Shown in pieces: positions 38,682 through 63,987 of a DNA stretch of 64,000 bases. The first letter of the stretch is position 1. The number at the start of each line of letters is the position of its first letter. The notes under the pieces were generated by a model. The model had not been told where the DNA came from, made no database searches, and worked only from the letters and a program-made list of their open reading frames with translations. Source of the DNA: Caballeronia calidae (GTDB taxonomy: Bacteria; Pseudomonadota; Gammaproteobacteria; Burkholderiales; Burkholderiaceae). Made by a program: the position numbers and the translations under genes. Location of the stretch: positions 124,001 through 188,000 of the forward strand of contig NZ_FCOX02000006.1 of the NCBI RefSeq assembly GCF_900044055.2, written 5' to 3'.

Positions 38682-40691
38682 ATGAAGATGGCCGTCCCCC
38701 AACGCGCCGCCAGCGTGCGCAATCCAGGAATGCTGTTCGCGGCTGCCCGTGAGGCGGGCGCGAGCCTGGTGCGCAATCTCTCGATTCCGGCGCCGTTCTC
38801 CGATCCCGCGCTCGAGGCGCAGTTTCTCGAAGACCACAGTCAGCGCTTTTGCGCATTCAGACGTGCGTCGACCCTGCTCGCGCTCGCCATCTGGACGTGC
38901 TTTCTCTGGTGGGACCTGAGCTTCGCGCGCGGCAACCAGGCGCTCAACGCGCGCCTCCCGGATGTCCTCGCGCTGCGCTTCGCGGGCATCGCGCTGCTGT
39001 TCTTCGTGGGCGTGCTGGTGCTGCGGCCCTCGTTCCGCTCACACGCGCGCTCGCAGCGGATCATTCTCACCGGCATCTACGGGCTGCTGTGCCTGATCCT
39101 CACGATGGTGGCGATCACGCCCGCGCCCTACAACTTCACGCAGCACTTCAACGGCCTCTGTCTCGCGCTGTTCTTCCAGTTCAGCTTCTTCTACCTCCGC
39201 TCGCGCATCGCGCTGATCGCCGGCGTCGTCACGCTGGCGTCCATCGTCCTGCTGCAGATCAGCTTTCACCTGCTCAGCTCCGAGGACTTCTTCGCCGGGG
39301 TGTTCTACATGTTCAACGTCGTGGTCGTCGGGCACGGCGTCTGCACGCACGCCGAGCGCGTGTCGCGCGAGCGCTATAGCTCGGAGCGCGCGCTCGCCGC
39401 GCTCAACGACGAATTGCGCACCGCGAACGTCTCGCTCGGCCGCAAGAACCGCGAACTGGAAGTGTCGAAGAAGGATCAGGAAAACAAGACGAACGCGCTG
39501 CTCGAGCTGCGCGAGCAGCAGATGATCGCCGCGCAGACCGCGAGCCGCGAAAAATCCAACTTTCTCGCCGCCGCGACGCACGACCTGCGCCAGCCGATGC
39601 ACGCGCTCAACCTGTTTCTGCAGGCGGCCGCCGAGGCCATCCGCAACGGCGAGTTCGATCAGGCCGAGCGGCTCATCAACGAATGCGGGCGCTCGTCGGT
39701 GATCCTCGCGCGGCTTTTGAACGCGGTGCTGGATCTGTCGCGGCTGGAGTCGGGACGCGTCGTGCCGCGCTATCACGTGTTCGACGTGCGGCAGATCGTC
39801 GAAGAAGCCGCCGAGCAATTGCGTCCGTTCGCGATGAGCCGCGGTGTCGAGTTGCGGCTGCGGCTGCCGAAGGAAGATATCGTCTGCGTGCGCAGCGACG
39901 CGCACTGGCTCGGACGCGCGGTCGCCAATCTCGTGTCGAACGGCATCAAGTACGCGGACACGAGCAAGACCTCGAAGCCGACGGTGATCGTCGGCGTGGT
40001 GCGTTCGCCGACCCGCGCGCGCATCGATGTGCTGGACAACGGCATCGGCATTCCGGCCGATTATTTCGACGCGATCTTCCAGCCGTTCTTTCAGGTCGAC
40101 AATCCCGAGCAGGATCGCGACAAGGGCCTCGGCCTGGGGCTGTCGATCGTCAATGCGGTGATTTCCATGCTGGATCAGCACCGCATCGAGCTGAAGTCCA
40201 CCGAGGGGCGCGGCTCGCGCTTCTCGCTGGAAATGCCGCTGTGCGGACCGTCGCCGGACACGCCGTCGGCGCGCGCGCCGGCGCGCTCGGAAGCCGCCGA
40301 GGCGGCGCACCTGAGCGGGCGCTACGTGCTGCTCGTCGAGGACGACGGTCTCGTGCGCGCGTCCACCGAAGCGCTGCTCTCGCAATGGGGCGTGCTCTAC
40401 GATTCCGCCGCGACCTTCGACGAATACGAGGAAATTCTCGCGACGGTCGAGCGTTTCCCCGACCTCATCATCACCGATTACCGTCTGCGCGACTTCAAGA
40501 CGGCGCGCGAGGTCGCGATGCTGGGCACGACGAAGCTCGGGCGGCCCTGCCCGTGCCTCGTCGTGACGGGCGAGCCGGCCGCGACGATCGTCCCGCTCGC
40601 GTGCGACCATGACGTGCTGTCGAAGCCCGTGAGCCCCGCCGAGCTGCGGCGCGAAATGGTGACGCTGATCGCGGGCGAAGCTCAGTTGTAG
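38682..40691 (+). CDS. Hybrid sensor histidine kinase/response regulator
   Basis: This 669-residue protein has about six membrane helices in residues 60-225, a coiled-coil linker (about 235-290), and an H-box AATHDLRQPMHALNLFLQ of the HDLRQP type. An ATPase domain follows (NLVSNGIKYAD, DNGIGIP, GLGLGLSIVNAV). A C-terminal receiver (VLLVEDDGLV, acceptor Asp in LIITDYRLRD, LSKPVSPAEL) ends the protein. There is no output domain, so signalling must pass to another protein. The stop overlaps the convergent pilin gene by 10 bp. Confidence 0.9.
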   Translation: MKMAVPQRAASVRNPGMLFAAAREAGASLVRNLSIPAPFSDPALEAQFLEDHSQRFCAFRRASTLLALAIWTCFLWWDLSFARGNQALNARLPDVLALRFAGIALLFFVGVLVLRPSFRSHARSQRIILTGIYGLLCLILTMVAITPAPYNFTQHFNGLCLALFFQFSFFYLRSRIALIAGVVTLASIVLLQISFHLLSSEDFFAGVFYMFNVVVVGHGVCTHAERVSRERYSSERALAALNDELRTANVSLGRKNRELEVSKKDQENKTNALLELREQQMIAAQTASREKSNFLAAATHDLRQPMHALNLFLQAAAEAIRNGEFDQAERLINECGRSSVILARLLNAVLDLSRLESGRVVPRYHVFDVRQIVEEAAEQLRPFAMSRGVELRLRLPKEDIVCVRSDAHWLGRAVANLVSNGIKYADTSKTSKPTVIVGVVRSPTRARIDVLDNGIGIPADYFDAIFQPFFQVDNPEQDRDKGLGLGLSIVNAVISMLDQHRIELKSTEGRGSRFSLEMPLCGPSPDTPSARAPARSEAAEAAHLSGRYVLLVEDDGLVRASTEALLSQWGVLYDSAATFDEYEEILATVERFPDLIITDYRLRDFKTAREVAMLGTTKLGRPCPCLVVTGEPAATIVPLACDHDVLSKPVSPAELRREMVTLIAGEAQL

Positions 40692-41200
40692 CTGAAGTTC
40701 ACCGTGGCGCTGGACGCCACCGTGCCGGCGGTCATCGTGCCGAGCCGGTAATACTGCGCGACCAGCGGGATGGTCATCGCGCTGGTGGCATCGACGGTGC
40801 CCAGGCCGAGCGCGGAGTTGATCGTGATATTGGTGCCGGTAATGTCGCCGACATTGGTCGCCTTGAGCAACTGAATACCGACCTGCGTAGCGGTGCCGGT
40901 GTTCTTGAGCACGCTTGCCACGGTGTCCGTCGTGCCGCTCACGGTCATCGTCACGTTGGTATTCGCCGTGCAATTGGACAGCTTGATATTGAAGGCCTTG
41001 GGCTGCGCGACGCTGCCCACGGCGGCGAAATCCGTGGTCTTGGCCGTATCGAGCGCGACGGTCTGGGTGCCGGAACCGGTCACCACCGTGCAGGTCGGCA
41101 GGATGATCGTGCCGGTGAACGTCAAGGTAGCGTCCGCTGCGAGCGCGTTGGCCGCGCCGAACAGCAGGGGCACTGCAAGGGCTATGGTGTGTTTGAACAT
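40682..41200 (-). CDS. Type 1-like fimbrial subunit (minor or terminal pilin)
   Basis: This 172-residue protein has a signal peptide ending ANALAADA. The pilin fold shows two Cys residues (PTCTVV near the N-terminus and LSNCTANTNVTM) and an alternating C-terminal strand ending VNFSYN, with the penultimate Tyr typical of chaperone-usher subunits. It is the last gene of the pilus operon. Confidence 0.87.
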   Translation of the reverse strand: MFKHTIALAVPLLFGAANALAADATLTFTGTIILPTCTVVTGSGTQTVALDTAKTTDFAAVGSVAQPKAFNIKLSNCTANTNVTMTVSGTTDTVASVLKNTGTATQVGIQLLKATNVGDITGTNITINSALGLGTVDATSAMTIPLVAQYYRLGTMTAGTVASSATVNFSYN

Positions 41201-41264
41201 GTCGAGTTGTCTTGAGTGAAAAGCGGCGATCTCACCCTATCGCCCTGAACGAAAGCGCCGTTTC

Positions 41265-42368
41265 CTAATCGTATGTGACCGTCAAGGTCATGGTGGCGTT
41301 GCCGGGGCCCGGGGTGACGGTTCCCGTGCGGTAGTACCTGGCGGTCATCGGCACCGAATAGCTTTGCGCGACGCCGGGATTGAATCCGCTCAAAGCCTTG
41401 TTTACGCCCAGCGGAAACACCGCGCCGGTGCTGTCGAAAAGCTGGATGCCGACGCCGCCGGCCGCCGGACTTCCGCTCAGCGCCGCCACGTTCGAGAAAC
41501 CCGAAACCGTGCCGTTGCCAGGGTCGATCCGGTACTGGACGCTGCTCAGCAGGCCTGCGCTCGTACCGGACACGAGGCTGCCGCTCGGGCAGTTATTGAA
41601 CTGCAAATTGAACGATGCGGGATTCGGCGACAGGGAACCGACGCCCGGCATGTCCATCGGTCCATGCGTGCCCATGTTTATATTCATATTGGGCGTCTGG
41701 CAGGTCAGCGTGGTGACGCTCACCGGTGTAATGGAGAAGCTCTGGATGCCCGCGGCGGCGTTGTCCGTAGAGTGTCCAATCGGAGCGCCCTCCGACGAGT
41801 ACGCCTGCGACACCATGCCTGACACGGTGCCGGGTGCGATGTTCCCGATCTTCACCAGCGCAACGGAAAGCTGACCGCCGTTCGTCACCGTCCCGTTCGT
41901 ATTGCACTGTCCTCCCAGGTTCGGCATGTCTTTCCAGGGCCACCACCCGCACCCGTTGGCGTAGACCCTCCCCGCCATGGCGATACCCACTCCGGCGACG
42001 TTCGTGGCGTAAACGGAAACGCTGATTCCGTTGTACGTCACCGTGTAGCCAGAGGGACTCGTCGACGCGATGCCCGCCGGCCAGAAATCGCTTCCGGTGC
42101 CAGACGCGCTCGTCACCGTGCAAGTCCAGTAATTGGTCGTCGCCGGCGTGCTCACCCAATTGGTCAGCAGCGAGCCGTTCGGCAGATCGCGCGCCACCGC
42201 CACCGAAGAAGGCAGGTTCAGCGTCCAACTGCTGTAATTCGCCTTGCACGAAGACGTGGCATGCGCAGCCGGCGCGCCTGCCAGGAGAAGGAGCGAGAAA
42301 AAGAGCGCCAGGCAGCGCGCCAGTGCCGGAAAAAGCAGCTTCAACGGATTCATATTCGAAAGCTTCAT
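41265..42368 (-). CDS. Two-domain fimbrial tip adhesin
   Basis: This protein is about 367 residues. After a signal peptide ending HAT comes a lectin-like N-domain (CKANYSSWTLNLPSSVAV ... WTCTVTS) and a C-terminal pilin domain (ISTPVSVTTLTCQTPNMN-like region to MTLTVTYD). The double-domain size and position after the usher are those of tip adhesins such as FimH. The receptor is unknown. Several starts are possible (42401, 42368, 42353); 42368 gives a compact signal peptide. Confidence 0.8.
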   Translation of the reverse strand: MKLSNMNPLKLLFPALARCLALFFSLLLLAGAPAAHATSSCKANYSSWTLNLPSSVAVARDLPNGSLLTNWVSTPATTNYWTCTVTSASGTGSDFWPAGIASTSPSGYTVTYNGISVSVYATNVAGVGIAMAGRVYANGCGWWPWKDMPNLGGQCNTNGTVTNGGQLSVALVKIGNIAPGTVSGMVSQAYSSEGAPIGHSTDNAAAGIQSFSITPVSVTTLTCQTPNMNINMGTHGPMDMPGVGSLSPNPASFNLQFNNCPSGSLVSGTSAGLLSSVQYRIDPGNGTVSGFSNVAALSGSPAAGGVGIQLFDSTGAVFPLGVNKALSGFNPGVAQSYSVPMTARYYRTGTVTPGPGNATMTLTVTYD

Positions 42369-42384
42369 GAGGTTGCGACGAGCG

Positions 42385-44949
42385 TCATCGGCATTCGCCA
42401 TCGAGAATGGCGAACGGTGTCTTCGGCTTCTTCGAATCAGGCAATTGGTAGTGGATCGTGCAGGACTGCGCCGCCTGCGCGCCCCACTTCACCGACAGAT
42501 CTCCCGCGTCGGCCTTGAGCCCCGTCGCGATGATGCGGCTGCCCTGCGCGACCGTTCCCACGGTCTCGCCCGCTTCGTCGTAGACCTGCGAGCCGAACGG
42601 CAGCGAACCACCGTTCGGCCGCGTCACGCGCAGCACGGCGGACTTGCCCGTGTCCTGCGTCTCGAACTTCGTGACGACGACCGCGCCCGCGGTCGGCGCC
42701 GTGCGTTGCACCGACGATTTGAGCTGGATGTTGAGCGGCAGGCCTTTGGGGTCCAGTTCGATGTCGTTGTTCGAATACGGCTGCAGGCCCGAGACGATCG
42801 CGTGTCCCCAGTGATCCACGCGCAAGCCGGAGCCGTTGTTCAGACGCGCGCCCGCGGCGTCGGGCGCGTCGACGATCGCGACGGTCTCGCTCATGTTCGG
42901 CGTCATCGCAAGGCCGCCGCCGTAGAGGACCGCGCCGCCCGACATGCCCGCACCGACCTGGCTGTAGCGGTCGCTTCGGCTCGCATTGACCGTCAGCAAC
43001 GTAACCGGCGATGAATAGGCGACGTTTCCGCCCACCGTGGTGGTGGCGCCGCCGCCGCCGTTGGCGTAGTTGGCGTTGACGCCGTAGCTGAATGCGCTGT
43101 CCTCGCCCAACGTGCCGCTGAGCGACGTCTGCAGGCTGTTGCTGTCGTTCAGGGAATCGTGCTGGTAGCTGGTCGTGGTCCGCGGCGCATGCGCGTCCAG
43201 GCCGAGCGGAATGTTCAGCGTCAGCATGACGCGGTTATCCCAGTTGCCGGCGTTGACGTCGTATTGGCGCGAAAGCGACAGGCCATAGTTCAGCCACTTC
43301 CACCGGTTCTCGTAGCCGAGCTGAAGTTGCGTATCGTGGCTGCCGCGATTCCAGTAGTTCTGCACGGAACCCGTCGCGTACAGCGAACCGTAGCGGTCGC
43401 CGAGACTCTGACTGATGTCGAACTGCACGCGCGACTTTTGCAGACGAGGCGCCTGCCCTGGGTTACGCACGTCGATGAACTGACGCAGGCGCATCGCATC
43501 GGAAAGGCTGATGAAGCCGCTCGTCGAGTAGCGATACGCTGCGATCGCGATGTTCGTGTTGGTGGGCTCCAGCACGCGGCTGTAGCTGAGCCTCAGGCTC
43601 GTGCCGTTGCGATCGCCGATGTTGCCGCCGAGGCGCGCCGATGCCTGGGTCACGTCGAATCCGAACGCGCCCAGCCGCGTGTTCAACGCCGTGCCGAGTA
43701 TGCCCGACGTGTACTGCTCCGCCGCGATCACGCCCCCGTAGAGCGTGACCGTGTTGGTCAGGCCGCGCTGCAGCGTGAATTGCGAGACGAACGGGTGCTG
43801 GCTCGTGGTTGCATCGCGATACTGGCCGACGACGGCGTTATACCGCGTGACGCCTGGGCGAAGCGCGTTCACCGCCGCCGCGTAGGGCACCGTGGAAATG
43901 TGCTGCGAACCGTCGGCTTCCGTGACGATGACCTGCAGGTCGCCGCCGTAACCCGTCGGATATAGATCGTCGATCTCGAACGCGCCCGGTGCAACGGTGG
44001 TTTCGTAGATGATGTTGCCGTTCTGCCGTATCTGCACCTTGGCATTCGTATTCGCAATGCCGTGAACCACCGGCGCGTAGCCGCGCTGCGACTGCGGAAG
44101 CATGCGATCGTCCGAGCCCAGCTTCACGCCGCGCACGCCGTAGCTGTCGAAGAGCTGCCCGTCGGTGAAGGTGTCGCCCACCGTGAGCTGGCCCCTGATG
44201 CCGACGATGTCGCGCTGAATATAGGTCGACAGGCTCTGGTAATGCGTGCCGCCATAACTGCTGTGGTTGACGTTGCCCTGGTAGCGGAAGCGCCACGCTC
44301 CCGCATTGATGCCGCCGGTCAACCCCAGGTAATCCGACTGCTTCGACACGCCGCCGGCATTCGAACGATAGGTATTCGCGTTGTACTGGAGCAACGCCGC
44401 AGGCACGCCCTCGTCCCAGTACTTCGGATCGACGTAGCCCCGCGCGCGCGAGCTCAGTGCGATCTGCGGAATGCTCACGTTCAGGCGCAACTCGCCCGAG
44501 TCGAAGTCCGCCTTCGCATCTGGAATCAGTCGCTGAATCGGTGCGCATGTGTCGTGCGCCCGATCGAGAAGCGCAAGCGCATCCGGCGTCAGCTTGCGCA
44601 CATCGGCGCCGAGATGCTCGAGCAATTCCGTATCGAAGCACGGTTGCACGGCATCCGTGCCGTCTCCGACGTCCTTGATCGCGATGCTCATCTTGCCGAC
44701 CCACGTGTCGTTCACGTAGGTATCGGCGCGATAATTACCCGGCAGCGGCTCGTCGCTCTTGTTGAAACGCGATATATCGGCCTTTGCGCCACTCCCGGAT
44801 TGCAGAAACTCCTGGTTGAACTGCACTGAGTCCTGCTGCGTTTCGTCCGCCCACGCGTGCGTGCCGAAGCCCGTGGCAGCGAGCGTCTGAACGACGAGGC
44901 AAAGCTCCTTCAACCGAAACCTGGGTGCACGGGTATCGCTGTCTTTCAT
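42385..44949 (-). CDS. Fimbrial outer-membrane usher
   Basis: This 854-residue usher of the FimD/PapC family secretes and assembles pilus subunits. An N-terminal domain (FNQEFLQSGSGAKADISRF; LPGNYRADTYVNDTWVG) precedes the 24-strand barrel and plug region, and C-terminal domains end in TIHYQLPDSK. Full length, no interruption seen. Confidence 0.93.
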   Translation of the reverse strand: MKDSDTRAPRFRLKELCLVVQTLAATGFGTHAWADETQQDSVQFNQEFLQSGSGAKADISRFNKSDEPLPGNYRADTYVNDTWVGKMSIAIKDVGDGTDAVQPCFDTELLEHLGADVRKLTPDALALLDRAHDTCAPIQRLIPDAKADFDSGELRLNVSIPQIALSSRARGYVDPKYWDEGVPAALLQYNANTYRSNAGGVSKQSDYLGLTGGINAGAWRFRYQGNVNHSSYGGTHYQSLSTYIQRDIVGIRGQLTVGDTFTDGQLFDSYGVRGVKLGSDDRMLPQSQRGYAPVVHGIANTNAKVQIRQNGNIIYETTVAPGAFEIDDLYPTGYGGDLQVIVTEADGSQHISTVPYAAAVNALRPGVTRYNAVVGQYRDATTSQHPFVSQFTLQRGLTNTVTLYGGVIAAEQYTSGILGTALNTRLGAFGFDVTQASARLGGNIGDRNGTSLRLSYSRVLEPTNTNIAIAAYRYSTSGFISLSDAMRLRQFIDVRNPGQAPRLQKSRVQFDISQSLGDRYGSLYATGSVQNYWNRGSHDTQLQLGYENRWKWLNYGLSLSRQYDVNAGNWDNRVMLTLNIPLGLDAHAPRTTTSYQHDSLNDSNSLQTSLSGTLGEDSAFSYGVNANYANGGGGATTTVGGNVAYSSPVTLLTVNASRSDRYSQVGAGMSGGAVLYGGGLAMTPNMSETVAIVDAPDAAGARLNNGSGLRVDHWGHAIVSGLQPYSNNDIELDPKGLPLNIQLKSSVQRTAPTAGAVVVTKFETQDTGKSAVLRVTRPNGGSLPFGSQVYDEAGETVGTVAQGSRIIATGLKADAGDLSVKWGAQAAQSCTIHYQLPDSKKPKTPFAILDGECR

Positions 44950-45091
44950 TTTTATTTGGTGCAGGCAAAGGCTCGCCCCGGCGCCCGCGCAGGGCCGCGA
45001 CGCTATCTCCCATGCTTACGCAGAGAGTTCGACTTGCAGGATTCGCGGCGACGCGTATCAGGCCGCCGGTATGGCTCTTGGTGTGGCCGGC

Positions 45092-45834
45092 TCAGGGAGC
45101 CAGCGCGGCGTCGCCGTCTTGCAGTCCGCCGTAGTCGTTGATCGCGAAGTAGTGAAGCTTCGCGCCCGCGGGCTGGACATCGCCATTGAGCTGGAACGCT
45201 TTCGATCCGCCGGGGTCGACCATGCCGCCAAACGTGGTTTCGGCATGCTGGGCGCCGTTGCTGACGCTCAGGCGCTCGACGGACACGTGATATTGCGTCG
45301 GGTTGTGCGCCACGATTTCAGTCTTGCCGTTCTCCTGCTTCAGGCGCCAGACGATCTGTGCGGCGCTTCGACGGCTTGCCCTTTCAGCCCCTCGGGCCGA
45401 AAAAAGAACTTGATGCGGGTGCGGAACGCCAGTTGCAACTGATTGGCGGAGGCCTCGTCGCCCGTCGGCTTCGGCGGGATCTCGAGCACGTTCAGATAGA
45501 AACACAGCTCTTTATCGGACGGCAACGGCTCGCCGGTATAGATGATCCGTAGCGTTTGCGACTTGTTCGGATTGATGCGCGTGACGGGCGGCGTGATCGT
45601 GAACGGAAGATCGATCGTGTCGGGCTTCGCGCTGGGATCTCCCTTGTCGAGCCAGATCTGCACGAGGCCAGGCAGCTTGCCGTTATTGCTCAGCCTGACC
45701 GTGACTTCCGAATCGGTCTGGTTATAGACCACGCGTGTACCGGCCACGACCACCGACGCCTGCGCATCGATGCCGAAAACAAAGCTCAGTGCGAATAGCA
45801 CCGTTGCTATGGTCACTCTGCAGATCTGTTTCAT
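45092..45834 (-). pseudogene. Fimbrial periplasmic chaperone (PapD/FimC type), apparent one-base frameshift
   Basis: The first part (45834 down to about 45360) encodes a signal peptide and an intact N-domain (ASVVVAGTRVVYNQTDSEVT; SQTLRIIYTG; ELCFYLNVLEIPP; RIKFFFRPEGL). It then ends in a short foreign tail. The expected C-domain continues in another frame from about 45358 (QIVWRLKQENGKTEIVAHNP ... LHYFAINDYGG) to the stop at 45092. One missing base near 45358-45366 explains this. All other pilus genes are intact. Either the operon is disabled or the base was lost in sequencing. Confidence 0.85.
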
Positions 45835-45935
45835 GTTCGAAGGCCTTGCCCGAAGAAATCCAAACTTTCGAATGAGGCGGAACAAAGTCCGCCTCATTCG
45901 AATCGTCGCTTCAGAAAAGCGGTTGCCCGCCTGGC

Positions 45936-46472
45936 TTACAGGTAGTCGACGCTGTAGACGACCGACGAATTGGCCGCGCCGGCACCGGTCGCGCCGGTTG
46001 CGTAGTACTGGACCTGGTAGCTGAGCGTGGCCTCGCCCGAGGTGATGTCGGCTGGTTCGGAGTTTTGCAGATCAGGCGAATAGCCTGCCTTGATCTGCGT
46101 GCCATCCGAGTTCAGCAACTGGAGCTTGACGTTGGTTGCACCGCCCGACGCGACCACAAGACGGCCATCGCTCGCGTCGACCGTAGCTCCCGCTTCGTAG
46201 AACACAGAAGCCGAAGAACCGCCGGAGCACCCGGTCAGCGCAATGGTGTAGGACGTCGTGCCCGCCGTCTGTCCCGCTGCCGTCAACGTGCTGGTGGACA
46301 CGGTGGGCAGCGTGACCGTGAAGTCCTTCTTACTGGTGCCGTTGCCGTTGATCGTGCATGTGTTCGCCGTCAGTGCGCCGTTGAACGTGATCGTTCCGTC
46401 GGAAGCGTGCGCGCCCGCGGCCGTCAGTTCAAGAACCGCGGCCGTGATTGCCGAAATGACATACATCTTCAT
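45936..46472 (-). CDS. Type 1-like major fimbrial subunit
   Basis: This 178-residue pilin precursor has a signal peptide ending AGAHAS, then SDGTITFNGALTANTCTING with the first Cys, a second Cys in ALTGCSGGSS, and a C-terminal strand ending VVYSVDYL. GGGAGAATC precedes the ATG. First gene of the pilus operon, as usual for the major subunit. Confidence 0.88.
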   Translation of the reverse strand: MKMYVISAITAAVLELTAAGAHASDGTITFNGALTANTCTINGNGTSKKDFTVTLPTVSTSTLTAAGQTAGTTSYTIALTGCSGGSSASVFYEAGATVDASDGRLVVASGGATNVKLQLLNSDGTQIKAGYSPDLQNSEPADITSGEATLSYQVQYYATGATGAGAANSSVVYSVDYL

Positions 46473-46811
46473 CTTTTGATTCTCCCAATTGATTGCGAAT
46501 CGACGAGCGCTTGAAAAGTCCCGATGCATCGAACTCTTTCGCTCGACGGGCTTCTTAGAAAAAACACTGACTCTTTGCCTATCTAAATGCCTTTTAAACA
46601 TGCAGCCTCGAGAAAGGCCAATCAAATAACAATTTATTGATTGACAGCAGTCGACAACCAAGGCCAAGTGATATTAGTCATCCAAATAAAGACACCTAAT
46701 CAGATTTCTCTTAAATGGACTCTGTCAAAAATTGGAATGTTTGCCTGTTGTCTCTAGAAATATTCTTAATGCTGCTGTTATGCAGATAAAAATTTCAGGC
46801 AAAAAGGTGAG
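46473..46811. other. AT-rich divergent promoter region of the pilus operon
   Basis: These 339 bases are much richer in A/T than the rest of the window and contain no supported gene. They separate the pilus operon from the nucleoside hydrolase. An 8-bp inverted repeat, TTTGCCTG (46740-46747) and CAGGCAAA (46796-46803), encloses 48 bases just before the hydrolase start. H-NS-type silencing would fit the composition but is inference. Confidence 0.5.
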
Positions 46812-57364: not shown

Positions 57365-58798
57365 CTACCTGACCGTTGCGTTTTCGATCAACGGAACAGA
57401 CGGTTGCAGTTCGAACGTCAGCTCGGCTGGCTTCGGGGCATTAGTTGCGCCGTCGTTCGCAGAAGGCGTGCGCTCGCCGGATTGCGTCTTCACCGAGCAA
57501 CACAGCATCGAACTGATCTGCGAGATGTCCTCGGTACTCAACGTTGCGACGTCGGCCTTCAGGTTGAGCAAGGTCACGACGGCCTGGTAGCGCGCTCGCA
57601 TCAGATCGCGTTGCGTGACGTAGAAGGTGTCGATGGCACGCAAGACATCGACGCTCGTGCGGCTGCCCGTTCGATAGCCGATCTTCGTCGCGTCGAGCGC
57701 CTCGCGCGTCGATCCGACGAGGCGCGCGAGCGTTGTGGTCCTCTCGCGCGCCTGGATATAGCGCGCGTAATTGTCGCGCGCCGAGTTCTCCGCCTGTCGC
57801 GATGCCAGCAGGACTCCCTGTTCCGCCTTGTCCTCCAGCGCAAGGGATTGTCTGACACGCCCTTGAATTTCGCCGCCCGTCAGCAACGGAATGCTCACCG
57901 ACAGCATGCCCGTGGTCGTCGTGGTGGGCATGGCATAGCCTGCAGCCGCGCCGGCCGGCGTGTATGACCCCGTGAGATTGACAACCGGATAGCCAGCGGC
58001 GCGCGCTTTCTTGGTGTCGTACTTGGCAATTTCCCAGTCGATCTGCTTGGACTGCACGTCGTAGCCGCGCGCCTTTGCTTCGTCGACCCAGACTTCCGCG
58101 CTCTCCGGAGAAAGCTTCGGCAATGGAAGATCGCGCGGCAGCGCGGCGAGCGAAGTGAACGGTTGACCGCTCACCAGCTCGACAGCGCGACGCTTGATGG
58201 ACAGCTCCTGTTGCGCGTCCAACTGCTGAAGGTGCGCCTGCTCGCGAGCCACCTCACCGTCGCGCACGTCGATCAGCGTCGCCTCACCGGCCGCGCGCTT
58301 GCGACGAATCTCCTCCGATTGCGCCTGGATGGCAGCACCATATTCGATCGTGCGCTTCAGTTCGTCCTCGGCTGCGAGCTCCTCGAAGTAGGCCTTCACG
58401 GCGCGAAGCATCGCGCTCTGCTGTGCACCGGCAAGATCGACCACGCCCTTCGCCGCGACATAGTCCGATTGTTTGTACGCCGTCCATTTGCTCCAGTCGA
58501 ACAGCGCCTGCGACACGCTGACCATCCAGCCGCTCTGCCAGTAGGTCTGCCTCGGAAAGCTCTCCACTTCGATGCGGTTATACGTTCGCCCCCAGCCTCC
58601 TCCTATCTGCGGGAGCAACGCTGCGCGCGCGATCGGAAGGGCCTGCTTCGCTGCCTCGTAGTCGGCGCGTGCCTGCGCGAGTTCGGCATCGTGGCCGAGC
58701 GTCATGTCGACGATGGAACGCAAGTCGTCCGCGCGTGCCGGCGCAACGCACGCCAGCGTGCCAGCGAGAATCCAGCCCGCAACATTGTTCTTTCTCAT
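57365..58798 (-). CDS. TolC-family outer-membrane channel of the peptide exporter
   Basis: This 477-residue precursor has a signal peptide ending APARAD. Two outer-membrane-efflux repeats (about 25-220 and 230-430) include LPQIGGGWGRTYNR and SVSIPLLTGGEIQGRVRQ. A Pro/Asn-rich tail of about 50 residues follows and includes a Cys-Cys pair. The start overlaps the ABC exporter stop (ATGA). It completes a type I secretion system with the next two genes. Confidence 0.9.
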   Translation of the reverse strand: MRKNNVAGWILAGTLACVAPARADDLRSIVDMTLGHDAELAQARADYEAAKQALPIARAALLPQIGGGWGRTYNRIEVESFPRQTYWQSGWMVSVSQALFDWSKWTAYKQSDYVAAKGVVDLAGAQQSAMLRAVKAYFEELAAEDELKRTIEYGAAIQAQSEEIRRKRAAGEATLIDVRDGEVAREQAHLQQLDAQQELSIKRRAVELVSGQPFTSLAALPRDLPLPKLSPESAEVWVDEAKARGYDVQSKQIDWEIAKYDTKKARAAGYPVVNLTGSYTPAGAAAGYAMPTTTTTGMLSVSIPLLTGGEIQGRVRQSLALEDKAEQGVLLASRQAENSARDNYARYIQARERTTTLARLVGSTREALDATKIGYRTGSRTSVDVLRAIDTFYVTQRDLMRARYQAVVTLLNLKADVATLSTEDISQISSMLCCSVKTQSGERTPSANDGATNAPKPAELTFELQPSVPLIENATVR

Positions 58799-60909
58799 GC
58801 GACGACTTCCTCGCCAGCCTCGGTATTGACGCCGTTGTCCCGCACGAGCGCGCCATCGGTGAAGCGAAAGCGCACATCGAACGTGGATGCAAGGGACATG
58901 TCGTGTGTGATGACGACCACGGTTCGATCCAGTTCGCGCAGCAAGCTGGCGATCCGGCGCACGGAAACCGGGTCGAGGTTGGACGTGGGTTCGTCGAGCA
59001 GCAACAACTCACGATCCTGATACAGCGCGCGCGCCAGCAACAGACGCTGCCGCTGCCCCGCGGAGATATTGGCGATGGTGTCGCTGATGATCGTGCGGGT
59101 TCGCATGGGCAGGCGCATGATGTCGTCGATCAGGCCGACCTTTTCAAGCAGAGCGTGCATGCGATCCTCGTCCGGATTGCCGGCGAAGAGCGTCACGTTA
59201 TCCGCGATGGAGCCATGCAGGATGATGTCGCCCTGGCGCATATGCGCCTGATGACGGCGGATCTCGTCGACGGTCAGGTTCGGCCACGCGATGCCGTTCA
59301 GCGCGATCTGACCGTGCTGCAGCGTTTCCGCCGCCGAGAGCAATTTGAACAGCGTGGACTTGCCGCTGCCCGATGGCCCGACGATGGCGATCTTGTCGCC
59401 CTTGCGCACGCTGAAGCTCGCGTCGCGCAGCACGGGTTCATCGGACACGCCGTAACTGAACGTGACATCGCGCACGTCCAGCCTGTCGAAAGCGCGAATC
59501 TCGGTGGCGCGCTGGCTATCCTTCAACGGCGTGTAGCGTTCGTTTTTCGCCTCCACGATATCGTCCACGCGCGCGGTCGGCACGGTCAGCATGAAATACT
59601 CGAAGGCCGCGTTGATCGCGCGCGAGAAGCGTTCCGACAACAGCGCCTTGTAGATCAGGAACGAATAGAACACACCGACGGAGATCTTTCCGCCCAGCAT
59701 CAGGCGCGCGGCCATCCACGTGATGAGGATGGTATCCGCATACTGAAGCAGCTTGAGGATCGAATCGCGCGTCGAGGCCAGCCGGCTGCTCGAGAGCCGG
59801 GCTGCGACATACGTCTTGTAGATCGTCATGTAGATCGCGGTACGGCGTGTTTCGCCCTGCGCGAGCTTGAGCAGTGAAGCCGCCCGGATCGTTTCGATCA
59901 TGGAGTCGTCGCAGCGCGCGGAGGTTTCCAGAACGAGCGCGTGCGTGTCGCGCATCGACGGATACATGCTGAATGCGAACGCGAAGTACAGCGCGAACAC
60001 GAGCACGGCGATGATCGTGAGCTTCGGGCTCTGAATGATCATGAGCCCCAGGGCGAGCGCGCCCACTATCAGATCGATGAAGAGGGAGACGGTCGTGCGC
60101 GTCGCGAAGTTATTGATCTCGTCCTGCGCCTTCACCTTCGCGAAGACGTCGCCGACGTGGCGCTTCTCGAACCACGACATCGGGTTGCGCAGCAGGTGGC
60201 CGACGAGCCCCTCGGTAGCGTTGACCTGCGCCATGCCGTTCACCAGCTCGGTGAGATAGGCCTGTACATACTGGCTCAGCGCGCCGATCACGAAGATGCT
60301 GGCGAAAGTCACGACCAGCACGTTCAGGAGATTGCGGTTATCCGCCGCGACGACATAGTCCAGCACCAGGCTGCCGAAGTAAGGAGACGCGAGAATCGCG
60401 AACTGGCTGCCCAGCGCCACGAACAGCACTTTGGCGATCTGCGCGTTCAGTTGGGGATTGAGCGCGCGCACGCGCTTCACCGCGGCGGGCACGCGCGATT
60501 TCGCGGAGATGCGGGGCATCTCCGGCGTCGGCGCGAACTCGAGCAGGAAACCGGAGACGGTGCTGATGAACAGGTCCATCGATACGCGCCGCCGGCCGCT
60601 CGCCGGGTCGATCACCTGGACGAAGCCCCGGCCGTACTTTTCGAAGACGACGAAATGCGCGCCGCCGAAGTGGAGGACAGAACCTTTCTTGATCGGTGAA
60701 AGATCCGAAGGATCGAAGCGGTACGCCTGAACGGACAGCCCGAAATCGATCGCAACGTCGTAGAGATCCATCAACGTGAGACCGTTGGCGGAAATCGGCT
60801 TGTACGCGGATAGTTCGCGCACTTCGGTGGCTCGTCCGTGATGGGATAGCACCATCGCGAGGCAGGCGTACCCGCACTCCGCCACTTCGTTCTGGTAAAT
60901 GACTCGCAC
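58795..60909 (-). CDS. Peptidase-containing ABC exporter (C39, double-glycine leader processing)
   Basis: This 704-residue protein has three domains. Residues 1-130 form a C39 peptidase with Gln6, catalytic Cys12 (QNEVAECGYACLAMV), His85 (GGAHFVVF) and Asp101 (VIDPASG), all present. A six-helix membrane domain (about 160-450) is followed by an ATPase with GPSGSGKST, the signature NISAGQRQR (ISAGQ instead of LSGGQ), LLLLDEPTS and VVITHD. The GTG start has AGAGGT upstream and lies 2 bp after the HlyD stop. In the family the peptidase removes leaders after Gly-Gly while exporting. The precursor peptides at 63312-63987 are the obvious cargo. Confidence 0.93.
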   Translation of the reverse strand: MRVIYQNEVAECGYACLAMVLSHHGRATEVRELSAYKPISANGLTLMDLYDVAIDFGLSVQAYRFDPSDLSPIKKGSVLHFGGAHFVVFEKYGRGFVQVIDPASGRRRVSMDLFISTVSGFLLEFAPTPEMPRISAKSRVPAAVKRVRALNPQLNAQIAKVLFVALGSQFAILASPYFGSLVLDYVVAADNRNLLNVLVVTFASIFVIGALSQYVQAYLTELVNGMAQVNATEGLVGHLLRNPMSWFEKRHVGDVFAKVKAQDEINNFATRTTVSLFIDLIVGALALGLMIIQSPKLTIIAVLVFALYFAFAFSMYPSMRDTHALVLETSARCDDSMIETIRAASLLKLAQGETRRTAIYMTIYKTYVAARLSSSRLASTRDSILKLLQYADTILITWMAARLMLGGKISVGVFYSFLIYKALLSERFSRAINAAFEYFMLTVPTARVDDIVEAKNERYTPLKDSQRATEIRAFDRLDVRDVTFSYGVSDEPVLRDASFSVRKGDKIAIVGPSGSGKSTLFKLLSAAETLQHGQIALNGIAWPNLTVDEIRRHQAHMRQGDIILHGSIADNVTLFAGNPDEDRMHALLEKVGLIDDIMRLPMRTRTIISDTIANISAGQRQRLLLARALYQDRELLLLDEPTSNLDPVSVRRIASLLRELDRTVVVITHDMSLASTFDVRFRFTDGALVRDNGVNTEAGEEVVA

Positions 60910-60911
60910 TG

Positions 60912-62093
60912 TCAACCTCTTAGCATTCGGAACAAAGGTGCAAGCACCCATTCGGCGATGGTTCTGCGCTCGACCACGATGCTCGCGGTCGCCTTCATGC
61001 CCGGCAGGATGGCGAGGTGCTGCCCGTCGAAGTCGAACGTTTTACTTTTCAGCGTGGCCCATGCCATGTATTCGCCATCGCCGCTTTTCGCGCCGTCCTG
61101 CTCGCCCATGCCGATGGTCGTGCCGGAGATGGAATCGATCCTCGCTTCGTAGGTACCGAATTTCGTGTACGGGAAGGCATCGAACTTGAGCCGGACAATC
61201 TGGCCCTCCTTGACGAAGCCGCGCCGCCGGGAAGGAATGCGCAGAGCGGCGCGCAGCGGACCGTGGTCGTTCGTCGCGATGACGAGCGCAACGTCACCCT
61301 CGGTGAGCGTGCGGCCGGCCACCAGGCTCGAAAAGGTGACGACGCCCGCACCCGGCGCCGACACGGTCGCGTCCTGACGCTCGCGCTCGTAGCGCGAGCG
61401 AATGTCCTGAACCTCTCTGTCGTGCCGCGCTTCGAGTTCGCGCACCTGCGCGTCGAGGTCCGCGCGCGCGCTGCGCGTCGCGTCGACGTCGCCCGCCAGC
61501 TGCTGGCGGCGTGCTCTCGTCTGCGCGACCGCGACCTTGCCCTGATGGACATCCGCCTGGGCCTGCTCGATTCGATCGGCCGTCACATATTCGGAAACGG
61601 AATTCAGACGCGTCACCTTGCGCTCGGATTCATTGACGAGTTGACGGCCTTGCGCGATCTGCTCGTCGAGCGCGGCCAGTTCCGCGCGCCGGCTTGCTTC
61701 CGTCACACGCGAGGCCTCGAGCTGCGCGTTCAACTGGGCACGCCGCTGCTCGTACTGGTCGTCGGCGGCGCGAATCTGTTCGTCCCGCGCCTGTTCGTCG
61801 AAGACTTGCCGGCGCTGACCGTTGGCCGACAACGAAAGGTCGCGCTGCAGCCGGAAGAGCGGCGCGCCCAATGCCACGCGCTCGGCAGGCTTCGCATAAA
61901 TGGCGGACACGAGCCCCGCGAGGCCGCGAATTTTGATTTCGGCGGGCGAGACGATTTCGCTTGGCACATCCTGCTTGAGTTCGACCTGATGCATGAACCC
62001 GAAGGCGATTGCACCGACGACAAATGTCGACGTGGCATAGGCGATCCAGCGCCAAGGCACGTCCTTGAATTCGGGGAGGCTCGTTGCTTGCAT
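60912..62093 (-). CDS. HlyD-family adaptor of the peptide exporter
   Basis: This 393-residue protein has an N-terminal anchor (about 18-36), a lipoyl-like half (IKIRGLAGLVSAIYAKPAER), a long coiled-coil hairpin (about 90-230, rich in Gln, Arg and Ala), and the second half VSAPGAGVVTFSSLVAG before a beta domain. It connects the ABC exporter to the TolC-type channel. The ATG at 62093 gives the usual N-terminus; upstream frame lacks support. Confidence 0.9.
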   Translation of the reverse strand: MQATSLPEFKDVPWRWIAYATSTFVVGAIAFGFMHQVELKQDVPSEIVSPAEIKIRGLAGLVSAIYAKPAERVALGAPLFRLQRDLSLSANGQRRQVFDEQARDEQIRAADDQYEQRRAQLNAQLEASRVTEASRRAELAALDEQIAQGRQLVNESERKVTRLNSVSEYVTADRIEQAQADVHQGKVAVAQTRARRQQLAGDVDATRSARADLDAQVRELEARHDREVQDIRSRYERERQDATVSAPGAGVVTFSSLVAGRTLTEGDVALVIATNDHGPLRAALRIPSRRRGFVKEGQIVRLKFDAFPYTKFGTYEARIDSISGTTIGMGEQDGAKSGDGEYMAWATLKSKTFDFDGQHLAILPGMKATASIVVERRTIAEWVLAPLFRMLRG

Positions 62094-62198
62094 AGCGCTC
62101 GATGATGGATGTCGGTTGGCAATATATGTGTCGCGTGCAAGCTGTCTGCCGCTCGTGGCAGACGGTCCGGTCAACGCGCGGATTGTTGGGCGAAAGCG

Positions 62199-63134
62199 CT
62201 ATTTCGCGGCGGCAAACGAATACATCGCCGGGTGGCCCGAAGTGAGCCACTGAGGGTAGTTTTCGGAGAGCGCGGCTTCGATATCGCCCGCAAGGCGCTG
62301 CGGCGCGCCCTCGTCGGCAAGCCGGATAGGGTCGAACAGACGGACCTTGAACCGCCCCTGCTCGAATCGGAGATAAAACGGCAGCAGCAGCGCGTCGAAC
62401 GTGGCGCCCATGCGGAACACACCGTTATGGATTCTCGCGTTGCGCCCGAACATGGATACACCGACCGTTTCCATCGGATAACGATGCATCGTGTACGGCG
62501 GCACGTCCGAGAACAGCACGGCCACGCCGTGACGTTTGAGCGCACGGGCGACGCGCACGCCCAAGCCGCCGCGATTCGGATCGTTGTAGGTATAGAGAAC
62601 CTTGATGCCGGGAATCAATGCGTGATCATCGCCATACTGGTTTTGCGGAACTCCCGATACCACGGCGAGCGAATCGATCCCGAGCAAAGCGCCCATTTTT
62701 TCGACGACGTAGATGTTCGCGTACTGCGAAACGTAGTGAAACGGGGAAACGAATATGGGCTTGCCAGGCGCGATGCTTTTTAGCCGCCGCACTTCGTCTG
62801 CGAGTGTTTGCGCCACGGCATCGAGATCCGGCAGTGATTCGCCGTTTCGAATCGCGCGACCAAAGTAGATGCGCTGGTCGATCAGCTTTTCGAGCAATAT
62901 GCCAGCGCGAGCGCGCTGCGCGATCTCGGCGGGTAATCCCAAAAGATCGCGACCAAGCTCAGCGCGACTGACTCCGGTCGCACGCCAACGCACGTCGCAC
63001 CAGCTACGCATCAACCATCCGACGTTGGCGAGACGCTCGATATTTTTCACCGGAATGCGGCCAATCAAGGAACGGCGCGCACGGAAGTTTTGTCGCGCAA
63101 CCCACTTCCTGATCGATCGAACAATGGCAGACAT
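62199..63134 (-). CDS. Divergent lipid A-type acyltransferase (LpxL/HtrB-like) in the peptide cluster
   Basis: This 311-residue protein resembles the lysophospholipid/lipid A acyltransferase family: an N-terminal helical segment, FVSPFHYVSQYANIYVV with His133, GVAVLFSDVPPYTMHRYP, and GATFDALLLPFYLRFEQGR. In LpxL enzymes the motif is His-x4-Glu/Asp. Here residue +5 is Tyr138, so the acid is replaced or shifted. No strong hydrophobic N-terminal anchor is evident. It lies between the precursor genes and the exporter genes on the same strand. It may acylate the peptides or a lipid. It may also be inactive. Confidence 0.75.
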   Translation of the reverse strand: MSAIVRSIRKWVARQNFRARRSLIGRIPVKNIERLANVGWLMRSWCDVRWRATGVSRAELGRDLLGLPAEIAQRARAGILLEKLIDQRIYFGRAIRNGESLPDLDAVAQTLADEVRRLKSIAPGKPIFVSPFHYVSQYANIYVVEKMGALLGIDSLAVVSGVPQNQYGDDHALIPGIKVLYTYNDPNRGGLGVRVARALKRHGVAVLFSDVPPYTMHRYPMETVGVSMFGRNARIHNGVFRMGATFDALLLPFYLRFEQGRFKVRLFDPIRLADEGAPQRLAGDIEAALSENYPQWLTSGHPAMYSFAAAK

Positions 63135-63287
63135 TTACGGATAGACTGAATTCGAAAAAAACCCAATTGCTCAATGAACAGCACCGCAATGAAAGAGGTA
63201 GAGTGCTTTTAGCCATCGGCGCAAGTGAATATCGCGGACTCCGTTTAGGTAACAGAATTTTCAGGCGCACCCACACAGGCGCGCCCA

Positions 63288-63307
63288 GATCTCTCTTTTG
63301 AGAGATC
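63288..63307 (-). other. 8-bp perfect hairpin after the last precursor gene
   Basis: GATCTCTC and GAGAGATC enclose a four-base loop 5 bases after the precursor stop. No T-run follows in the leftward direction, so it may protect the 3' end of the peptide mRNA rather than stop transcription. Confidence 0.5.
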
Positions 63308-63311
63308 CGCA

Positions 63312-63449
63312 TTACCCTATCACTACAGATTCCGCTGTAATCGTAAGATTAATGTTCGTTGTGTTGGTCGCAGTCGTAGTCGTAGTCGACTTATTACCAC
63401 CACCCGCCAGTTGCAATTGAACCAGCATATTGCGATCGAGTTTTTGCAT
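63312..63449 (-). CDS. Double-glycine peptide precursor 4 (45 residues)
   Basis: The leader is MQKLDRNMLVQLQLAGG. The core begins GNKSTTTTT and ends TAESVVIG. The 28-residue core is the longest of the four, dominated by Thr and Asn, with alternating polar and hydrophobic residues (NINLTIT) that favour beta structure. Lys is core residue 3. GGAA lies 11 bases before the ATG. It is nearest the acyltransferase gene. It fits no bacteriocin family I know. Confidence 0.82.
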   Translation of the reverse strand: MQKLDRNMLVQLQLAGGGNKSTTTTTATNTTNINLTITAESVVIG

Positions 63450-63484
63450 GCCACACATTCCAGATTAAAAACGCTAACACGAGA

Positions 63485-63510
63485 GCGGTCAGGAATTAAT
63501 TCCTAACCGC
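63485..63510 (-). other. 26-bp inverted repeat between precursors 3 and 4
   Basis: GCGGTCAGGAATT and AATTCCTAACCGC form a 13-bp arm pair with no loop. The single deviation gives a G-U pair in leftward RNA but a C-A mismatch in rightward RNA, which supports a role in the leftward peptide transcript. It starts 10 bases after the precursor 3 stop. Confidence 0.6.
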
Positions 63511-63519
63511 TATTCTGCT

Positions 63520-63639
63520 TTAGCCGGTGATGCTAATCGTCAGATCCGTCGTGTTCGTTGCCGACGAATTGACCGACGACTTTGCCGTGCCGCCAGCGAT
63601 TTGAGCTTGAACCAGAACGTTGCGATCGATCTTTTGCAT
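63520..63639 (-). CDS. Double-glycine peptide precursor 3 (39 residues)
   Basis: The leader is MQKIDRNVLVQAQIAGG. The 22-residue core starts TAKSSVNSSATNTTDL and ends TISITG. It is uncharged apart from Lys at core 3 and one Asp. AAGGAATT precedes the ATG at a normal distance. The leader shares -4 hydrophobic, -2 Gly and -1 Gly with double-glycine substrates. Confidence 0.85.
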   Translation of the reverse strand: MQKIDRNVLVQAQIAGGTAKSSVNSSATNTTDLTISITG

Positions 63640-63738
63640 GATTTAATTCCTTTTCGAAAATTTAAAGAAACATTACGGCCGTTGCATCGCGAAGCATCGC
63701 GCCTTGATTTGACGCAATGCTCGCACCTCGAGCGGCTG

Positions 63739-63852
63739 TTACTTTGCCTGAATGATGATGTAGACCGTATTGCTCGCATTAGCGCGCGAGTTCTTCGCGC
63801 AACCGCCAGCCAGTCCGGAGTTCATCAACGCGGTGCGCTCGATTTTCTGCAT
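63739..63852 (-). CDS. Double-glycine peptide precursor 2 (37 residues, Cys-containing)
   Basis: The leader MQKIERTALMNSGLAGG differs at several positions from its sisters. The 20-residue core CAKNSRANASNTVYIIIQAK begins with Cys and is basic, with Lys at core 3 and a strongly hydrophobic VYIII run. It is the only precursor with Cys. AAAGGT precedes the ATG. The gene lies 9 bp after precursor 1. Confidence 0.82.
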   Translation of the reverse strand: MQKIERTALMNSGLAGGCAKNSRANASNTVYIIIQAK

Positions 63853-63861
63853 GACTTACCT

Positions 63862-63987
63862 TTATTCAGACTTCGAGACGTTGACGTCCAGGGTCGTGTT
63901 GTTCGTCGCCGTGGACGAAATCACGTCCTTAGCCGCACCACCGGCGATTTGAGCTTGAACCAATGCGCTACGCTCAATCTTTTGCAT
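63862..63987 (-). CDS. Double-glycine peptide precursor 1 (41 residues)
   Basis: The leader is MQKIERSALVQAQIAGG. The 24-residue core starts AAKDVISSTATNNTT and ends LDVNVSKSE, with Lys at core 3. AGGTT precedes the ATG. It lies 13 bases from the window edge, and further members of the array may follow to the right. It is close in sequence to precursor 3. Confidence 0.83.
   Translation of the reverse strand: MQKIERSALVQAQIAGGAAKDVISSTATNNTTLDVNVSKSE

Follow-up and report, generated by a model that had tools for sequence, protein, structure and literature searches.

The window analysed, a 64,000-nucleotide stretch of Caballeronia calidae contig NZ_FCOX02000006.1, contains an array of four small genes, designated p1 to p4, whose products carry a double-glycine (Gly-Gly) leader and which stand at the head of an export operon. 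An original prediction, made from the letters of this DNA alone, had proposed four short open reading frames (ORFs) sharing a 17-residue leader, diverging after Gly-Gly and possessing cores of 20 to 28 residues; all four were located on the minus strand with these properties (Table 1), Gly-Gly ending the leader in each. An alignment of the four contains eleven invariant columns, i.e., M, Q, K, R, L, A, G and G of the leader and K, A and N of the core. The array, announced as at least four genes, comprises exactly four, with a GntR/aminotransferase-type regulator next upstream, past the window edge, while a fifth copy lies separately in the same genome (C3:272498-272674). The ribosome site ascribed to each gene was recognizable as a good Shine-Dalgarno-like stretch before p1, p2 and p3 and as a weak one before p4, and the ATN-TT stretch expected in most cores is present in three of the four, p2 having ASNTV instead. 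The stop of p1 is separated from the start of p2 by 9 nt, and p1 was matched at 5.7e-22 in its own genome by a profile built from these same four peptides. Two hairpins are predicted between p4 and the next gene (63263..63306, minus strand), and the fold of positions 63130-63315 reaches -60.2 kcal/mol (z -3.4 for the whole stretch, with none of 200 shuffles as low); the hairpins could represent a point of mRNA processing or attenuation. A promoter scan returned no promoter, and terminator-like sites numbered three against 1.8 expected.

On the same strand, p4 is followed by genes for a 311-residue acyltransferase-fold protein, a HlyD-type adaptor, a C39-peptidase ABC exporter and a TolC-type channel, and the Pfam assignments of the latter three bear out the view that the peptides head an operon with a C39 exporter. 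The position of a Gly-Gly peptide array beside such an exporter is thus borne out, and export after cleavage at Gly-Gly would be the natural reading, as proposed. The acyltransferase-fold gene had been left out of the original prediction, as had the Lys that is nearly invariant in the cores and the recurring association with pili and YadA-type adhesins described below. The 311-residue protein matches no Pfam family at 1e-3 and no Protein Data Bank (PDB) chain by sequence up to an E value of 10, its relation becoming visible by fold comparison only: its model is predicted to have the fold of the LPLAT superfamily, and its structural alignments to LpxM and PatA show 13-16% identity. His133 and Asp210 are conserved in all 62 family members and in all three distant relatives. 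The HX4(D/E) motif is absent, since the residue five positions after His133 is Tyr in 60 of the 62 and Phe in the other two; this, together with the low identity and the fact that it is encoded with exported peptides, sets the protein apart from LpxM and PatA. The spacing between His133 and Asp210 is 77, compared to 74 for H126-E200 of PatA, and Asp210 may thus be equivalent to Glu200 on the basis of spacing rather than superposition. A role in anti-phage defence was rejected: the seven PADLOC models that matched all did so within the ATPase part of the exporter, and the other three proteins gave no match. In a plasmid collection searched with HlyD, identity reached 60-80% in a single record (Caballeronia sp. 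M1242) and stayed below 60% in 1193.

The peptides belong to a family of 119 distinct members (124 before removal of five N-terminally extended duplicates), which was selected with a Gly-Gly pattern and hence does not test that motif; the peptides of loci L113 and L119, extra copies in L134 and L170 and the fifth copy of the window genome stand outside this set. The family leader approximates MQKI[DE]RNxLAQxxVAGG, with a hydrophobic residue at -4, Gln or Lys at -7 in 87 of the 119 and Arg at -12 in 116. Lys is the only near-invariant residue of the core, being present at +3 in 111 peptides, at +2 in four more and at neither position in four, and mean pairwise identity from +4 onward is 0.13. 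Two intergrading core styles are discernible, one rich in Ser, Thr and Asn with a beta-like tail and the other starting with CCK and possessing a Pro/Ala/Gly-rich tail; Paraburkholderia xenovorans LB400 (L092), for instance, encodes one peptide of the CCK style. The description of the cores as poor in Cys therefore holds for the window, where the only Cys is at +1 of p2, and not for the family, in which 65 of the 119 cores start with Cys and 49 with CC. The alternating hydrophobic tail is likewise weak in the four window peptides taken alone (six pairs against 2.8 in shuffles, a value reached by 37 of 1000), is clear over the 70 non-CC cores (127 against 43.1, standard deviation 5.9, reached by none of 1000) and shows no group excess in the 49 CC-type cores (10 against 6.5, reached by 98 of 1000), among which those of L100, L108 and L114 do have a beta-like tail.

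In three orthologue sets from other genomes (six, four and three sequences), the ratio of nonsynonymous to synonymous differences per site (pN/pS) is 0.07, 0.16 and 0.00 for the leaders and 0.41, 0.14 and 0.69 for the cores, the last value being based on no more than 8 synonymous differences and 16 others; for the four leaders of the window, compared with one another, it is 0.34. Because the orthologue leaders evolve with such low pN/pS (0.00-0.16), and given relatives across genomes, the four ORFs behave, by sequence comparison, as genes. Of the 963 candidates retrieved by searching 5.8 billion proteins, 71 were relatives. All of these lack a Pfam domain, those with names being called hypothetical or uncharacterized and one being labelled ‘six-cysteine peptide’. 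No NCBIfam model matched the four window peptides, and 39 relatives yielded weak single-member matches only (SCIFF at 6e-4 in NCBIfam and 4.5e-3 in Pfam; listeriolysin S at 8e-3), consistent with the earlier failure to recognize a described family. These candidates, together with a thiopeptide precursor and weaker others, were rejected as chance matches to Cys-rich or low-complexity cores.

The original prediction had made its case depend on the co-occurrence of such peptides with this exporter type in related genomes, and this was indeed found. Among 299 genomes of the same bacterial family, peptides were detected in 38 (the window genome included, as well as a weak match in G101, E 0.0075, that is regarded as chance), the acyltransferase in 38, the exporter in 36 and all three in 34; an orthologous exporter is present in 35 of the 38 peptide genomes, while peptides are present in 35 and the acyltransferase in 34 of the 36 exporter genomes. 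When titled genome records were scanned with the acyltransferase profile, 58 loci were obtained, from Caballeronia, Paraburkholderia, Burkholderia-named relatives, one Cupriavidus and one Rhodanobacter. Gly-Gly peptides are encoded at 56 of these, including L119 with its decayed export genes, the two exceptions being the Rhodanobacter locus L113, which has an AAG variant, and the decayed L094, where no peptide was found. At 1e-6 the profile gave no match in 368 other genomes of the class, although the Rhodanobacter and Cupriavidus loci exist and a protein search also lists Variovorax and Trinickia names. A distant set of three loci (L150-L152, group g3, same family) combines a Gly-Gly peptide with an acyltransferase relative (27-28%) and another C39 exporter, L151 also having a HlyD-type adaptor, which suggests, as far as sequence can tell, a wider association of enzyme and peptide. 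Of note, the L152 core ends in NTTVVNVYVRRGKWG, resembling the NTTVVIYIQGK tails of Caballeronia peptides. The export operon is fragmented in three symbiont genomes (L094, L118 and L119; by title two Candidatus species and one symbiont metagenome-assembled genome).

Pilus or adhesin genes, or remnants thereof, were found in or beside the operon at 28 of the 58 loci. At 14 of these, from Caballeronia to Rhodanobacter, a chaperone-usher-tip set stands directly upstream on the same strand, the major pilin being in view in 13, as the stretch of L109 begins inside the chaperone. These sets resemble type-1-like pilus operons in their pilin, PapD chaperone, usher and two-domain tip adhesin, and differ from them in that Gly-Gly peptide, acyltransferase and type I exporter genes then follow on the same strand, the peptide genes coming after the tip adhesin or the last pilin. 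Five further loci retain remnants, i.e., of the usher in four (a 38-residue match in L100) and the tip adhesin alone in one, while nine carry a divergent YadA-type autotransporter adhesin upstream (eight called by signal motif and L114 by clustering, with Pfam applied to L107 only). On the acyltransferase tree, the pilus label, with remnants counted as pilus, requires at least five changes on several separate branches. This was a quick tree with Shimodaira-Hasegawa-like approximate likelihood ratio (SH-aLRT) support only, from which the decayed L094, L118 and L119 and the repeats L142 and L149 were left out and in which the duplicate pair L109/L143 was retained. In the twelve genomes whose usher shares 64% identity or more with that of L066, the exporter is always present and peptides are present in eleven; the other 46 genomes of this search have ushers of lower identity, and as linked ushers below 64% also exist (L089), this value is no clean separator. 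Genome G267 possesses two pilus copies with no adjacent exporter, each accompanied by a peptide gene; in one of the two copies the Gly-Gly site is degraded and the usher is shortened. In G221 and G244 the usher lies directly against C39, the tip, pilin, peptide and acyltransferase genes of G244 being located ~0.7 Mb from that usher/C39 pair.

The reading we favour, to which we would give about an even chance, is that the peptides are Gly-Gly precursors of an adhesin-linked export module, being cut, exported, likely acylated and active at the cell surface with a pilus or similar adhesin. The LpxM/PatA-fold enzyme would add a fatty acyl group to the precursor before export, the C39 domain would cleave after Gly17 and the HlyD/ABC/TolC set would carry the core out of the cell, where the cores, rich in Ser/Thr/Asn or in Cys/Pro and in many cases ending in a beta-strand-like tail, may help adhesion, pilus function or the biofilm matrix. 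Lys at +3 would be the best candidate acceptor because it is the only near-invariant core residue, a neighbouring Cys being the other candidate. A lipidated product is suggested by the near-constant presence of the acyltransferase fold together with the conserved Lys, and a surface role by the recurrent association with adhesins of two unrelated types, so that a product serving adhesion or biofilm rather than a bacteriocin appears the best reading. The nearest chemical precedent is offered by selidamides and nostolysamides, in which a fatty acyl group is attached to the side chain of Lys or Orn of a ribosomal peptide, Lys1 in nostolysamides (PMC13060382); the Lys at +3 would be compatible with such a modification. 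The enzymes used there are of the GNAT type and mostly belong to lanthipeptide clusters, whereas here the predicted fold is that of LPLAT and the operon holds no synthetase.

Several observations weigh against this interpretation. Activity of the enzyme could be altered or lost, given the missing HX4(D/E) motif; the four family members with Lys at neither position, and the peptides of L150-L152, which have no Lys at +3, appear to weaken this residue as acceptor. No adhesin was found at 30 of the 58 loci (flanks up to 10 kb, with some contigs ending early), including a large Paraburkholderia group, and many of these adjoin putative formate dehydrogenase genes. Several pilus-linked cores are devoid of a beta-like tail (L071, L083, L090, L096, L099 and L120), the pilus-linked L113 has AAG for Gly-Gly, and in the window itself the pilus operon is not adjacent to the peptides and its chaperone is split between two frames. 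Furthermore, the acyltransferase served as bait in finding the 58 loci, and species history is partly mirrored both in the correlation of usher with acyltransferase distances (r 0.92) and in the co-occurrence across genomes, the p-values of which are thereby inflated. The more specific proposal, that the LpxM/PatA-fold enzyme acylates a ribosomal peptide on Lys+3 and that the C39-exported lipopeptides are accessories of chaperone-usher pili and YadA adhesins, is accordingly advanced only tentatively. If true, it would represent a new kind of lipidated ribosomally synthesized and post-translationally modified peptide and a new pilus-associated component, and would thereby provide ribosomal peptides with an additional route to lipidation and the chaperone-usher pili of Caballeronia and Paraburkholderia with a peptide constituent. 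The family recurs in pilus operons paired with a fold for which the literature accessible to us describes no peptide substrate, and no description of this peptide/acyltransferase/exporter set was found in a literature coverage that excludes most subscription journals.

Gram-negative Gly-Gly peptides have mostly been interpreted as microcins, and a microcin-like array, in which the peptides would be lethal to competing bacteria and the acyltransferase-fold protein would shield the producing cell through changes to its lipid A or phospholipid, is an alternative that we consider unlikely. The short precursor, the Gly-Gly site and the set of C39 ABC exporter, HlyD and TolC are those of class II microcins such as microcin V with CvaB/CvaA/TolC, the multi-peptide arrays with fast-changing cores would fit, and several genomes carry extra stand-alone copies. 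The leader, originally thought very short compared to class II bacteriocins, is not unusual for a Gram-negative C39 substrate, that of microcin V having 15 residues. The class II microcin leader typically has hydrophobic residues at -4 and -7 and Leu at -12, whereas the leader of the window family is hydrophobic at -4 with mostly Gln/Lys at -7, Leu at -9, Arg at -12 and Ile at -14. The acyltransferase-fold gene and the recurrent sharing of the operon with pili, or YadA-type adhesins nearby, also differ from microcin systems, no acyltransferase accompanies the stand-alone copies of L121-L137 within the stretch examined, core pN/pS stays below 1 (0.14-0.69), and bacteriocin models of NCBIfam gave only the weak matches mentioned above. 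The ORF lists covering the operon in the window showed no evident immunity-like gene, although no systematic scan for such genes was made.

A further alternative is that the peptides are exported unmodified and assemble outside the cell into a beta-rich matrix beside the pilus, the acyltransferase merely tuning the envelope, as in a system resembling the EbfG peptides of Synechococcus elongatus, whose export is of the C39 type. EbfG1-4 are four small secreted Gly-Gly proteins of one operon with a role at the surface or in the matrix (PMC9981879, PMC4997328), EbfG1-3 being amyloid and matrix components (PMC9981879), and they constitute the nearest functional precedent. The four-gene array and the Ser/Thr/Asn-rich cores with alternating hydrophobic tails would agree with this. 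The precedent comes from a different phylum, and the available parts of these reports describe no acyltransferase partner; the 49 CC-type cores show no group excess of the beta-like pattern, and a gene so rarely missing (34 of 36 exporter genomes) would be odd for a mere envelope tuner, for which reasons this explanation also appears improbable. Donor-strand mimicry, in which the beta-strand tail would fill the groove of a pilus subunit and thereby cap or modulate the fibre, is very unlikely: peptide genes do follow the tip adhesin or last pilin in linked loci and tails such as TTVDINISA, or VVVNGKTVV of the fifth copy, resemble pilin donor strands, yet no pilin was retrieved when one such peptide served as phmmer query against the sequences of the PDB, leaving the idea unsupported by sequence, and the six tail-less pilus-linked cores listed above argue against it.

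The window also encodes pilin, chaperone, usher and adhesin of a cognate chaperone-usher pilus operon (40682-46667), located on the same strand as the peptides and 10.7 kb beyond tolC. Its chaperone, usher, tip adhesin and second pilin were compared with those of L066 (Table 1), where the usher stands upstream of the peptides; in other Caballeronia loci the peptide genes begin after the second-pilin gene. The chaperone gene (45092-45897) is represented by two overlapping frames; either the gene is broken or the assembly is in error at this point. Elsewhere in the window genome (G000:C44:22088-24541), another usher is encoded that is more distant (53%).

Table 1. Features of the peptide, export and pilus operons of the window, and peptides of the distant loci L150-L152.
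Feature	Position	Strand	Details
Peptide p1	63862..63987	-	41 aa, leader MQKIERSALVQAQIAGG, core 24 aa
Peptide p2	63739..63852	-	37 aa, leader MQKIERTALMNSGLAGG, core 20 aa, CAK start
Peptide p3	63520..63639	-	39 aa, leader MQKIDRNVLVQAQIAGG, core 22 aa
Peptide p4	63312..63449	-	45 aa, leader MQKLDRNMLVQLQLAGG, core 28 aa
Acyltransferase-fold protein, LPLAT superfamily, LpxM/PatA-like	62199..63134	-	311 aa; predicted model
HlyD-type periplasmic adaptor	60912..62174	-	Pfam HlyD_3 1.5e-10
C39-peptidase ABC exporter	58795..60951	-	718 aa; Pfam Peptidase_C39 9.6e-24, ABC_membrane, ABC_tran
TolC-type outer-membrane channel	57365..58798	-	Pfam OEP 2.4e-45; NCBIfam type_I_sec_TolC 2.6e-66, just below cut-off
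Major pilin	45936..46667	-	Longest frame, true start probably internal; 62% to L064 pilin; FimA/Fimbrial for 45936-46556
PapD-type chaperone, N-terminal part	45340..45897	-	PapD_N 3.7e-43; 71% to L066
Same chaperone, C-terminal part, other frame	45092..45505	-	64% to L066 chaperone over 87 aa
Outer-membrane usher	42385..44949	-	Usher 7.6e-163; 63-64% to L066 usher
Two-domain tip adhesin	41265..42401	-	Fimbrial 4.5e-14; 54% to L066
Second pilin	40682..41200	-	Fimbrial 2.6e-17; 70% to L066
Distant-set peptide, L150	9656-9841		
Distant-set peptide, L151	8101-8259		
Distant-set peptide, L152	8776-8961		

Stand-alone peptides with the family leader and long cores ending like SLVVVNGKTVVDRTVTY were observed at G000:C3:272498-272674 and in L125, L133, L135 and L136, and these ends could form a beta-hairpin with an NG turn. 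Other stand-alone peptides, which begin with MIKIDR or MIKIER, are encoded in L127, L128, L130 and L137; both a YadA-type adhesin signal motif and DUF2827-like proteins (by Pfam in L127 only) occur no more than 5 kb away from them.
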